A stretch of 64,000 nucleotides of DNA from SAR202 cluster bacterium (GTDB lineage: Bacteria > Chloroflexota > Dehalococcoidia > Lucifugimonadales > GCA-2712585), in assembly GCA_016872285.1 (NCBI GenBank), contig VGZZ01000005.1, positions 1 to 64,000 on the forward strand, given 5' to 3'. The number at the start of each line of letters is the position of its first letter. Positions within the stretch are counted from its first letter, which is position 1. The notes below the pieces were generated by a model, which saw only the letters and a program-made list of their open reading frames with translations, made no database searches and had not been told where the DNA came from. Below are positions 4,716-12,856 of this stretch, in pieces. Position numbers and translations under genes: made by a program.

Positions 4716-4786
4716 AACCTAACTTCGTTGACACCTCTTGGGTGGCGGCATAGACTGGCCCTTAGTAACCCAACGGAGGCGATGGA

Positions 4787-6001
4787 ATGGCCTGGAACGG
4801 CTGGAAGGTTATCGACATGGACTCGCACATTCAGGAGCAGCCCGCTCGAATGTATAACGGCTATGTGGACAAAGAGTACGAGGAGGACTTCCAGCGCCTC
4901 AAGAAGGCCATCGAGGCCAATATCCAGTCCGGCGGCAAGGGCGCCGTGGCCGCCAGCCGATACGCCATCCTGGCGCCCGTAGTCTCCGACGGCACCCTGG
5001 GCATGATGGACAGTTTCGGTATGGCCCCCCGCGAGTTTATTCTCCAGCCCAAGAAAGGCACCCGCACCAACTTTGGCCGCCCCGAACGCGGCGACCTCCC
5101 CATGATCCGGCCCGAGGTCAACTGGGACGTGAAGGCGCGAATCGAGGACATGGACGCCTCCTATGTGGACGTCGATGTCCTGTACCCTACCCACGTATCC
5201 AGCTACTGCGCCCTCAACGACGTGGGCTTCGAGAACGCCCTCTACCGCGCATACCATAGATGGGTCAGCGACTTCTGCTCCCAGGCCCCTGCCCGGCTCA
5301 AGTGGACGCTGGTGGCCAACATGCGTGACTCCCGATCAGCTGTGCAGGAGATTAAGTACTGGGCCAAAAAGGACATAAATCTGGTAGGTGTCTATTTCTC
5401 ACCCCAGGGCCCCAACGACATGCTCCTGGACGACAAAAGCCTCCACCCCATCTACGCCGCCGCTCAGGAGGAGGAGCTTCCCATCCTGGTCCACGGCGGC
5501 ACCGCCCGGCCTCCCTACGCCCCCGGCACCTTCGACCTCCGCGGCGCCTGGTTCCTGCAGCACTCCCTGGGCAACCCCTGGGCGGGCATGGCCTCCATGG
5601 GCGCGCTCATCGGCGGCGGCATCTTCGAGAAGTTCCCATCGCTCCGGGCGGCGGTGGTCGAGACGGCGGCAGGCTGGCTCCCCGGCATCCTTGACCGATA
5701 CGACAGCCACTACGCCCTGTCGCCGGCCCACGTGCCCTACTTGAAGCACACGCCCAGCCAGGTGGTCAAGGAAAGCGGCCGCTATTTCCACGGCATCGAC
5801 ACCTGGGAAAAGACCCTCGAATGGCTTGTCGGCGAGCTGGGCGAGGACGTCCTCGTCTTCGCCACCGACTGGCCCCACGGCGACACCGCCTGGCCCGAGG
5901 CTGTCCAGCAGGTGGTCGAATGGAAAGGCCTCAGCGACAGCGCCAAGCGCAAAATTCTAGGCGAGAACGCCCTGAAGCTCTGCCCCAGGCTGCAAGGGTA
6001 A
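4787..6001 (+). CDS. Amidohydrolase family 2 metal-dependent hydrolase/decarboxylase
   Basis: TIM-barrel amidohydrolase-2 family protein of 404 residues. The start of the barrel carries the metal-binding DMDSHI (D-x-H), a later HGGTARPP segment supplies a conserved His, and FATDWPHGD near the C-terminus holds the terminal metal Asp region. Relatives include ACMS and gamma-resorcylate decarboxylases and many uncharacterised hydrolases, so the substrate is unknown. GGAGG at 4775-4779 is 7 nt before this ATG. A second ATG at 4782 is too close to it. No obvious operon partner. Confidence 0.88.
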   Translation: MAWNGWKVIDMDSHIQEQPARMYNGYVDKEYEEDFQRLKKAIEANIQSGGKGAVAASRYAILAPVVSDGTLGMMDSFGMAPREFILQPKKGTRTNFGRPERGDLPMIRPEVNWDVKARIEDMDASYVDVDVLYPTHVSSYCALNDVGFENALYRAYHRWVSDFCSQAPARLKWTLVANMRDSRSAVQEIKYWAKKDINLVGVYFSPQGPNDMLLDDKSLHPIYAAAQEEELPILVHGGTARPPYAPGTFDLRGAWFLQHSLGNPWAGMASMGALIGGGIFEKFPSLRAAVVETAAGWLPGILDRYDSHYALSPAHVPYLKHTPSQVVKESGRYFHGIDTWEKTLEWLVGELGEDVLVFATDWPHGDTAWPEAVQQVVEWKGLSDSAKRKILGENALKLCPRLQG

Positions 6002-10254: not shown

Positions 10255-10971
10255 TTAAGGGCCCTTCCGGCGAAAAAGCGAGAAGAAGCGGTCCTGGTAA
10301 TGCTGGAAAAGGCCCCATCGGTCCAGCTCTCTTTTCAGAATTGCGGGATCCGCGCCCCTCTCAGTGTCTCTAAAAAGCTCTTCAATGCGCTGGATCGCCG
10401 CTCTTGGCGCTTCCATCTCCCCCGCGGGATCAAACAACCGGCGCGACTGCAGCTCTTCAACATTCCCCGCCACAGACGCCGCCGTGTATTCGTAAATGAA
10501 CTTTAGCAGCGACACATCCCATAGCTCGTCAACGCCCAGCATCACCACAGAAAGGTTGTTGCTTTCGTCCTTCAGCCTGCTGCTCACCCGCTGGGCCACC
10601 TCAACGGCCGCTCCTTCCACTATCTCCATCTCGCCCGGCTCGTTCTTGTAGTGGTAAAGCAGCCCAGGCGCATTGGCGCCATGACGGAGAGCCAGGGAGT
10701 TGAAATACGCCTTGGCGTCATCTCCAAAACCATCAAGCTGGGCCATATACGCTGGCGTGACAACCTGAGGCCGCTCCGCGGTCACAACCCCTTGCCTGAT
10801 AACCGCCTCCGACGGCCCGGGGGCTACCTCTTTGTAAACCGGTTCGGTGACAATAAAATACTGCAATCTCGTGACGCCAAAAGTGTGCAAGTATTGATGA
10901 GGCGCCTTCACTACCTGTGTCCTTGAGACGGCGTCTATCAAACGACGGTATTGACCGTCCAGGTCCTCCAT
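10255..10971 (-). CDS. Conserved hypothetical protein
   Basis: Not recognised. A soluble, mixed-charge protein of 238 residues when started at MEDLDGQYRRL. The central part is beta-rich, and the C-terminal third is helical (AAIQRIEELFRDTERGAD). No signal peptide or membrane segment. The ATG at 10971 lies one base past the stop of the upstream helical gene, so translation is probably coupled and the two products may act together. An open extension reaches 11046 but overlaps the upstream gene. Confidence 0.7.
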   Translation of the reverse strand: MEDLDGQYRRLIDAVSRTQVVKAPHQYLHTFGVTRLQYFIVTEPVYKEVAPGPSEAVIRQGVVTAERPQVVTPAYMAQLDGFGDDAKAYFNSLALRHGANAPGLLYHYKNEPGEMEIVEGAAVEVAQRVSSRLKDESNNLSVVMLGVDELWDVSLLKFIYEYTAASVAGNVEELQSRRLFDPAGEMEAPRAAIQRIEELFRDTERGADPAILKRELDRWGLFQHYQDRFFSLFRRKGP

Positions 10972-10972
10972 G

Positions 10973-11566
10973 TCAGACCATCTCAACGAGATGCTTCTTG
11001 TTCTCTTCCAGATGCTGCTCGTACTGACGGTCAATCTGGCTGGCAATCCGCATCCACTGCTGTTGAAACTCCGGCAGGGTCTCCACCTGTATCTGGACCT
11101 GCCCTTGCTGCGTTCCCCGCTGGCGGCTCAGCGCCTCCATGACCTGTTGCTCCATCTGCATCTTCAACTGCTGTCTGGTCTGCTCCCTCTGAGGCACCGC
11201 GAACTGCCAGTACTGGTCGGAAACATACTTGGCGCGGGATAACAGTTCCTTGGCTTTGGGCTTCTCCTTAAGAAGCCTCTCCAGGCCCTCAATCATTTTA
11301 GTGTTCGCCAGATAAGTTGCCTGGGTCCTGGGCAGCTGCAGATTCGAGATTAAAACGTTAGCCATTCCTCTAACTAGATAAGGCCGGTGCTCCGGCGGCG
11401 CGCCGGCGATTTTCGAGAACGGGGCGCTCTCCCCCTTTATGAACTCCCCCGCCAGCTTCTGGCCTTCGGGCAGCAGCTTCCACTCCAGTCGCTGCCTATC
11501 GTTGGGCTTCTCAAGCTGCTCAATCTTCTCCATGGCTCTTTCGTATGCGGATTTAATGCGGTCCAT
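10973..11566 (-). CDS. Hypothetical helical protein
   Basis: Not recognised. About 197 residues from MDRIKSAYERAMEKIEQLEK. Strongly helical and Gln/Arg/Glu-rich with likely coiled coil at the N-terminus and in the last 60 residues (QQLKMQMEQQVMEALS). The frame is open to 11704, so a longer form is possible; a start at MSGKFRK near 11656 is the main alternative. First gene of a two-gene unit, divergent from the rhodanese gene. Confidence 0.6.
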   Translation of the reverse strand: MDRIKSAYERAMEKIEQLEKPNDRQRLEWKLLPEGQKLAGEFIKGESAPFSKIAGAPPEHRPYLVRGMANVLISNLQLPRTQATYLANTKMIEGLERLLKEKPKAKELLSRAKYVSDQYWQFAVPQREQTRQQLKMQMEQQVMEALSRQRGTQQGQVQIQVETLPEFQQQWMRIASQIDRQYEQHLEENKKHLVEMV

Positions 11567-11722
11567 ATTCTTTCTTATAAACTCCCATCGCGGTACGTAC
11601 AGTATAGCAAGATGTCCAAAAGGCATGAAACGCCCTTTGCGGAACTTACCACTCATGCAGATGTTGACCCGACGACGCCTTTGTGCTATCTCTCTGCTAT
11701 ACACAAGCGCATCGGAGGCCCT

Positions 11723-12094
11723 ATGTCGGAAAGCATTGGAAAGAAACTAATAGAATCTGCTCAGAACGCCGTGCCCTCTATCTCCACGGACGAGGTCCAA
11801 AAGAAGTTGCAGCGCCGGGAAAAGATCGTCGTTCTGGATGTCAGAGAACCGGACGAATGGGCCAACGGCCACATAAAGGAGGCCACTCTCCTTGCCCGTG
11901 GGCGCATCGAGGGCAGGATTGAGGAGATGATCCCAGACAAGAACACTCTCATAGTCACCCATTGAGGGGGCACAGGCCGCGCTGCCCTGGCAGGGCAGAC
12001 CCTTAAGAATATGGGATACAAGAACGTGTGCTACATGAATCCCGGCTTCAGCGGCTGGAAGGAGGAGGGCAAGCCCATCGTTAAACCGTCCTAA
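11723..12094 (+). CDS. Predicted selenocysteine-containing rhodanese-like sulfurtransferase
   Basis: Single-domain rhodanese, 123 codons if TGA at 11963-11965 is read through. Before it come the CH2A-type LDVREPDEWANGHI and TLIVTH; after it, in the same frame, GGTGRAALAGQTLKNMGY and GFSGWKEEGKPI complete the domain to TAA at 12094. The TGA is codon 81, exactly where the family has its persulfide-forming Cys (HC-x-x-G-x-R type loop). A 7-bp hairpin with GGC loop lies 23 nt downstream, as expected for a bacterial SECIS. GGAGG at 11714-11718 precedes the ATG. A one-base loss-of-function mutation (TGC/TGT to TGA) is the alternative. No sel genes are in the window. Confidence 0.78.
11982..11998 (+). 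promoter_or_regulatory. SECIS-like hairpin
   Basis: Perfect stem CTGCCCT/AGGGCAG with apical loop GGC, beginning 16 nt and reaching its loop 23 nt after the in-frame TGA at 11963-11965. Bacterial SECIS elements are read by SelB at about this distance and start their loop with GG or GU. Confidence 0.65.
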
Positions 12095-12121
12095 ATCCCC
12101 ACTGCCCCCGTCATTTCGCCC

Positions 12122-12152
12122 TTGAACCCCCTATTGCTTTCGGGGGTATACT
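12122..12152 (+). promoter_or_regulatory. Candidate promoter of the response regulator
   Basis: TTGAAC (12122-12127), 19 bp spacer, TATACT (12147-12152). The start codon at 12162 would be at or next to the transcription start, so the message may be leaderless. The spacer is long. Confidence 0.4.
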
Positions 12153-12161
12153 AGAAAAACC

Positions 12162-12856
12162 ATGGCGACTATTTTACTGGTGGATGACGAAAAGTCGGTG
12201 CTGGACATGCTTAGCGCATGTTGCGAGGAGGCTGGCCACCAGCCCCTCCCCGCCTTAAGCGCCCTGGAAGCCCTGCGGCTCCTTTTCAAGTACCAGCCCG
12301 GTCTGGTTATTACCGATATCCGAATGCCCGGCATGACGGGTTTCGACCTGGTGAAACGCATCCGCGAGGTCACTGATATACCTGTCATCCTTCTTAGCGC
12401 CATGGGCGGCGAAGATGAGAAGGTCATAGGTCTGAAGCTGGGCGCGGACGACTATTTGGTAAAACCTATCGGCATCAAGGAGCTGTCCGCGCGAATTGAG
12501 GCGGCCCTCCGGCGCGCTAAAACCCCCGTCACAGCGCCCAGGGAGTCTACTCGGACGGCACCATTTCAATCAACCTGGACCGGCAAGAAGCCTATCTCAA
12601 GGATAAGAAGCTTGACCTCACGCCAAAAGAGCTAAAGCTCCTTATCTTCCTGACACAAAAGGCTGGGAAAGTAGTATCCGTTCCGGAAATACTACGGTCG
12701 GTTTGGGGGTCCCTAGGATACTCGGAAGAAAGCGTGAAATGGCACATCGCCAGTCTCAGACGCAAAATAGAGAATGAGCCCCATAACCCCAAGCTTATCC
12801 TAACCGTGTGGGGGTCCGGCTATAGATACGAGCGTCAGCTAGCAGAAGCAGCCTGA
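12162..12856 (+). pseudogene. OmpR-family response regulator, frameshifted between domains
   Basis: Frame 1 (12162-12635) encodes a full receiver: acidic VDDE at 7-10, phospho-acceptor D52 (ITDIRMPG) and K101 (YLVKPIG). The winged-helix DNA-binding domain (LTPKELKLLIFLTQ, then SVKWHIASLRRKIE and GYRYE) continues in another frame from about 12521 to TGA at 12856. A single missing base between 12521 and about 12560, perhaps in the C5 run near 12523, would restore one protein of about 231 residues. No classic slippery heptamer is visible, so assembly error or recent mutation is likelier than programmed shifting. It faces the histidine kinase tail to tail, 8 bp apart. Confidence 0.8.

Follow-up and report, generated by a model that had tools for sequence, protein, structure and literature searches.

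The window, which is the whole stretch of 64,000 nucleotides of the SAR202 cluster bacterium that was analyzed, contains at positions 11723 to 12094 of the plus strand an open reading frame for a single-domain rhodanese of 123 amino acid residues. It starts with the ATG at 11723, 4 nt downstream of a Shine-Dalgarno-like GGAGG on the same strand (11714 to 11718, read off the sequence), and ends with the TAA at 12092 to 12094. The frame is broken solely at codon 81, a TGA at 11963 to 11965, and is otherwise open. An earlier note on this DNA, made from the sequence alone, had stated this and also that reading past the TGA yields a complete domain, and both statements were borne out. In a profile search, the Pfam model Rhodanese (PF00581) matched residues 22 to 115 with 70.3 bits (cut-off, 22.2 bits), so that the match spans the TGA. 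Directly upstream of the TGA is the CAT codon of His80 (11960 to 11962), and the remainder of the active-site loop UGGTGR follows at 11966 to 11980. The resulting UX4R loop, U81-GGTG-R86, comprises six residues and is of the CX4R type with Sec in place of Cys. A six-residue loop is the length found in sulfurtransferases and not in Cdc25-type phosphatases. On the minus strand, at 10255 to 11704, two overlapping genes diverge from the rhodanese gene and encode products of 263 and 243 residues, the second with a sub-threshold match to DUF6657.

An AlphaFold2 model based on the orthologue alignment had a mean pLDDT of 91.5 and predicted a strand at residues 76 to 80, followed by Sec81 and a helix at residues 84 to 96. 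The best matches in a Foldseek search against the PDB were rhodanese-domain proteins (6mxv, 3tp9, 2hhg, 1yt8, 1qxn, and GlpE, 1gmx), and in sequence alignments, Sec81 coincided with the active-site Cys in both 6mxv and 1qxn. Profile score and predicted fold together assign the protein to the rhodanese superfamily PF00581. The Francisella rhodanese-like protein 6mxv was the best PDB match in structure as well as in sequence (TMq, 0.89; 36 to 37% identity), but it possesses two rhodanese domains and a catalytic Cys. The polysulfide-sulfur transferase Sud of Wolinella succinogenes (1qxn; TM, 0.79) is a single rhodanese domain of similar length and contains RAALAGKTL behind its catalytic Cys, compared to RAALAGQTL in the Sec rhodanese; it differs by the Cys instead of Sec as the catalytic residue, by its origin from another phylum, and by an identity of 32% only.

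A protein search of 147 relatives resulted in nine close orthologues, including that of the window, with one TGA each, and four more came from a profile search that covered 250 genomes of the order, giving 13 in total. The pairwise amino acid identity of these 13 proteins was 48 to 91%. Stop codons at random positions, as in simple gene decay, did not occur; the TGA was located at the codon of U81 in all 13 orthologues from 13 genomes of the order. A Cys-bearing orthologue was not found in the 250 genomes, in which the scores fall from 193 to 103 bits. The Sec proteins from the 13 genomes grouped in the tree as one clade with a support of 99/98 and without a Cys member. Outside of this clade, 44 homologues from Poribacteria, Nitrospirota, Arsukibacterium, and the MoeB/MoeZ-type domains of other Chloroflexota had a Cys codon, TGC or TGT, at the aligned position. 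Alignment with Cys and Sec rhodaneses agrees with the claim that the TGA replaces the catalytic Cys, which is present at this position in the closest non-Sec homologues.

The motifs within the Sec clade were UGGT, UGGS (in three members), UMGT, or UMGA, followed by GR or AR, and Arg86 was invariant. Two residues upstream of Sec, Thr, Ala, Val, or Ile was present but never Cys. His80 and its CAT codon were shared by all 13 Sec orthologues, and the Cys homologues aligned with them mostly contained a Tyr there. A match in genome G469 with one TGA was ruled out as a Sec form, for its catalytic codon is TGT. One genome, G006, harbors a second selenorhodanese copy (L120; contig C237, 1216 to 1467, minus strand), which looks damaged: it retained the catalytic TGA and the hairpin with the loop GUC, and it displayed two more TGAs and poor similarity in its upstream part.

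A bacterial SECIS-type hairpin is located at 11982 to 11998 of the plus strand. It is composed of a perfect 7-bp stem, CUGCCCU/AGGGCAG, and the triloop GGC at 11989 to 11991. The earlier description of a perfect 7-bp hairpin with a GGC loop was correct, but its distance of 23 nt to the TGA is that of the apical loop; the stem itself starts 16 nt downstream of the TGA. When tested by the published bSECIS criteria (PMC13188914, Fig. 2) with a purpose-made scan, the hairpin with its 7 bp, GGC loop, and 23-nt distance agreed with the bacterial SECIS model. The local fold had a free energy of −22 to −28 kcal/mol and a z value of −2.45. No relevant RNA family appeared in an Rfam scan of positions 11500 to 12400. 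Within the window, 3.6% of the TGAs are followed by a hairpin with a score of at least 10, and that of the rhodanese gene scored 9.5. A hairpin after a TGA, taken alone, is weak evidence.

Comparison of the hairpin among the orthologues, in contrast, provides strong evidence. Its position and spacing did not differ in 13 of 13, and it was perfect in 12 of these; when the damaged copy L120 was included, all seven pairs were present in 13 of 14, with one stem mismatch in L161. GGC and GUC occurred as loops, and the bSECIS model permits either. Random synonymous recoding of nine genes kept seven pairs at that place in 0.1 to 1.0% of the trials per gene. Among the 44 Cys homologues, only L076 exhibited seven pairs at the place of the hairpin, within a GC-rich Ala/Arg stretch, and the others five at most. 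The pS value was 0.76 upstream of the UGA, 0.03 in the stem codons, and 0.74 downstream of the stem. Ala88 was encoded by GCC and Leu89 by CTG in 13 of 13 genes each, and Gly91 by GGG in 12 of 13, compared to an average synonymous diversity of 0.50 at the other codons. A TGA and a hairpin that recur at the same place in 13 of 13 genes, with the synonymous sites around them saturated, are beyond chance. The outer pair of L035 and L160 changed from C-G to G-C with both bases exchanged, and Ala became Gly and Gln became His. These two genes are sisters in the tree, so this compensatory change is counted as one evolutionary event. The flip of the pair altered two amino acids while the pairing was kept.

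A search for selA, selB, selD, and tRNA-Sec in the source metagenome-assembled genome (MAG; G000; 2.61 Mb, 95.6% complete), which belongs to the Chloroflexota as judged from its closest named matches, found all of them. The scores were 557 bits for selA (cut-off, 268), 365 bits for selB (cut-off, 242), 376 bits for selD (cut-off, 125), and 76 bits for tRNA-Sec (gathering threshold, 47), which was also identified by ARAGORN as tRNA-SeC with the anticodon tca. The selD gene itself contains an in-frame TGA in its CAGU motif. The four genes are situated on four contigs (selB on C25, selA on C8, selD on C33, and tRNA-Sec on C68); being on separate contigs, they give no evidence of a common operon. 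Within the order, 128 of 147 genomes had a selD score above the cut-off, and every full-length copy listed had one TGA, which indicates that the use of Sec is lineage-wide in this order. From the 13 carriers of the rhodanese gene, 11 possessed tRNA-Sec and 12 selB; the misses concerned G002 (78% complete) and G616 (85% complete), and these gaps are due to incomplete MAGs. The selD hairpins of the order shared the architecture of the rhodanese hairpin, mostly with 7 to 9 bp and a triloop that contains G and is located 27 or 33 nt downstream of the UGA. Of the 31 selD loci examined (L126 to L155 and L077), 30 showed an uninterrupted hairpin of 5 bp or more at a SECIS distance and with a G in its loop. 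This variety of selD hairpins would support a lineage-specific SECIS model.

The 48 predicted genes of the window ended with TAG in 23 cases, with TAA in 18, and with TGA in 7. TGA was the rarest stop codon at a G+C content of 59.6%, where it would be expected to be common. Among the neighbors, TAG was also common in L112 and L113, and L114 contained more TGA.

The gene at 11723 to 12094 is with high confidence a selenoprotein gene with the TGA read as Sec, and the decoding of codon 81 as Sec, considered by itself, is likewise very probable. The selenocysteine reading proposed in the earlier note is supported by the Sec machinery, the SECIS-type hairpin, and the TGA conserved in the orthologues. 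From what is established for bacteria, SelB would bind to the hairpin and bring Sec-tRNA-Sec with the anticodon UCA to the UGA. Decoding of this codon would then yield the full protein of 123 residues. A pN/pS value of 0.34 before the UGA, 0.33 after it, and 0.28 after the stem indicates that selection acts on the protein sequence encoded behind the UGA just as on that before it. Alternatively, the gene may be decaying or contain a sequencing error, so that the TGA would be a nonsense mutation and the hairpin a coincidence. Copies of this gene can decay, as evident from L120, but the same TGA in 13 genomes, the pN/pS of about 0.3 behind it, and the synonymously frozen stem codons leave next to no probability for this explanation; since both the TGA and the protein sequence following it are conserved, the nonsense reading is refuted. 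The low share of TGA among the stop codons of the window would be in line with a reassignment of this codon in the organism or with its general readthrough, as Trp, Gly, or Cys. TGA does terminate genes of the window, as had been claimed from the start, and SelA, SelB, and tRNA-Sec are present. Moreover, both in-frame TGAs that were examined, that of the rhodanese gene and that of selD, are at catalytic Cys/Sec positions, and none was met at a non-Cys position, all of which renders a different genetic code extremely improbable. Finally, an 80-residue polypeptide may be the main product, with the insertion of Sec acting as a selenium-responsive switch. SECIS-dependent decoding in bacteria competes with termination, which is compatible with such a regulatory truncation, but the 80-residue piece would end inside the predicted fold at the catalytic strand and without the active-site helix, and this possibility is very improbable.

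To our knowledge, rhodaneses with Sec were already suspected and have never been studied biochemically. Their appearance in selenoproteome surveys, as stated in the earlier note, was confirmed: they have been reported from the Sargasso Sea, from the GOS data, and in later surveys (PMC1088965, PMC2398784, PMC13188914), and an earlier review listed them as predicted only (PMC9312934). Rhodanese was not mentioned in the deep-Sep paper, and Chloroflexota were not discussed under that name in the selenoproteome papers searched. The forms 1 to 5 of rhodanese-like selenoproteins were tabulated with the motifs UxxS, UxxG, CxU, UxxG, and UxxxxU, respectively (PMC13188914). These catalogued forms share with the gene described here a rhodanese domain, an active-site Sec, prediction from genomes or metagenomes, and a bSECIS downstream of the UGA. 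The motif of the Sec clade does not fit any of the UxxG, CxU, or UxxxxU forms, and the three UGGS members would fit UxxS. From the NCBIfam scores given below and from a comparison by motif label with forms 1, 2, and 4 (WP_010941598, MBM9537886, and MCY3690685), the clade may represent a subfamily of this known kind that has not been catalogued.

In NCBIfam, the Sec clade did not reach any cut-off, with 90.5 bits versus 449 for MoeB/MoeZ as the best value. Homology to NF041203 (rhodanese_LYCAU, rhodanese-related [seleno]protein) was detectable with 50.1 bits, which is below the cut-off of 115; the motif is THU and not CAU, a Cys two residues before Sec is missing, and membership was rejected. 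NF045694 (TsoB, rhodanese/DsbD fusion-like selenoprotein) also contains a rhodanese domain with Sec, but the score was 37.7 versus 805 bits, and a single domain of 123 residues with one Sec does not agree with TsoB, which has two Sec. The MoeB/MoeZ-type rhodanese domains of other Chloroflexota, with the motif C-AGGVRS, were the closest Cys homologues in the phylum by profile with up to 121 bits. These proteins have about 400 residues and are, from their length and the NCBIfam match, probably fused to an adenylyltransferase. With its single rhodanese domain and a score far below 449 bits, the Sec protein is not a member of the adenylyltransferase-sulfurtransferases.

A second selenorhodanese family appeared among the weaker matches of the search of the order. 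It comprises seven genes (L179 to L185 from G637, G633, G626, G634, G632, G621, and G635) of family f41, mostly from genus g313, with one TGA each. The TGA occupied the aligned codon, and the hairpin behind it had a loop that starts with G and is located 25 to 26 nt downstream of the UGA. The motif was UGGG, UGLG, or UGIG, followed by Q, H, or S, and an Arg was missing at position 6 of the loop. The identity to the 13-member Sec clade of the same order was about 30 to 35%, and the seven proteins formed a separate clade (100/100) with the Cys member L186 from G617 nested inside. Since this clade is separate, Sec was probably fixed at least twice at the rhodanese active site in this order. With its UxxG motif, the family would agree with forms 2 and 4 as labeled in PMC13188914, again as a comparison of motif labels only, and it did not exceed any NCBIfam cut-off. 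Tandem multi-domain rhodaneses of about 530 to 560 residues were also seen in many genomes of the order (L036 to L056 and others, e.g., G034:C13 and G116:C2), and in a few of the tandem-rhodanese matches, TAG or TAA occurred within the matched region (G626:C60, G632:C55, G622:C22, and G620:C98).

Concerning the function, the predicted fold and the active-site loop argue to some degree for a sulfur (or selenium) transferase, which is the more probable assignment. The selenolate of Sec81, positioned at the N terminus of the helix within the six-residue UX4R loop, would attack a sulfane-sulfur donor, which may be polysulfide, thiosulfate, or a persulfide. The sulfur would then be carried as Sec-S(−) and handed over to an acceptor thiol. 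The gene context did not point to a pathway: in family f1, the rhodanese gene was kept beside the divergent gene pair, and the contexts in other families varied, so that synteny was dismissed as a clue to the function. The pair for the 263- and 243-residue products adjoined the rhodanese gene in all six carrier genomes of f1.

Instead, the protein may deliver selenium, with Sec81 or a perselenide passing it to selenophosphate synthetase and thereby feeding the pathway of its own synthesis. In G064 (L118; contig C320, reverse complement), the rhodanese gene at 4766 to 5146 is located 189 nt upstream of selD, which starts at 5336 on the same strand, and both genes contain an in-frame TGA. PMC10298544, citing Ogasawara 2001, describes that rhodanese can form a perselenide from selenite plus GSH and that a protein-bound selenopersulfide was proposed to feed SelD; all checked carriers are, moreover, Sec users. 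On the other hand, selD was adjacent in 1 of 13 carriers, and a rhodanese gene was not found at 30 further selD loci in the order. The protein is absent from most of the genomes that use Sec in this order, which means that it is not required for Sec synthesis, and a role in selenium delivery is rather unlikely. The more specific proposal of a Sec-only rhodanese subfamily of Chloroflexota that would carry selenium or sulfane sulfur to SelD and that originated independently of the second family is unlikely as a whole. The rhodanese scaffold might also serve a Sec-dependent peroxidase or reductase that acts on polysulfide, selenite, arsenate, or peroxides and has no transferase activity. This would be in agreement with the bacterial Sec proteins of known function, which are mostly redox enzymes (PMC2398784), and the invariant His80 beside Sec could tune the selenolate. 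A resolving Cys, as UxxC or CxxU, is missing around Sec81, and the UX4R loop of six residues is that of a sulfurtransferase; a redox enzyme is thus quite unlikely, and the transferase continues to be preferred.

To understand the biological meaning, it should be considered that no NCBIfam model covers these proteins at its cut-off, so that routine annotation is liable to truncate such genes at residue 80. What began as a guess from the raw sequence is now a well-supported selenoprotein gene. Its SECIS is located in the coding region and constrains the protein, as indicated by two amino acids that changed together while one RNA base pair was preserved. The 13 Sec orthologues and the natural Sec/Cys pair in the sister family make it testable what Sec adds to an enzyme that carries a persulfide.
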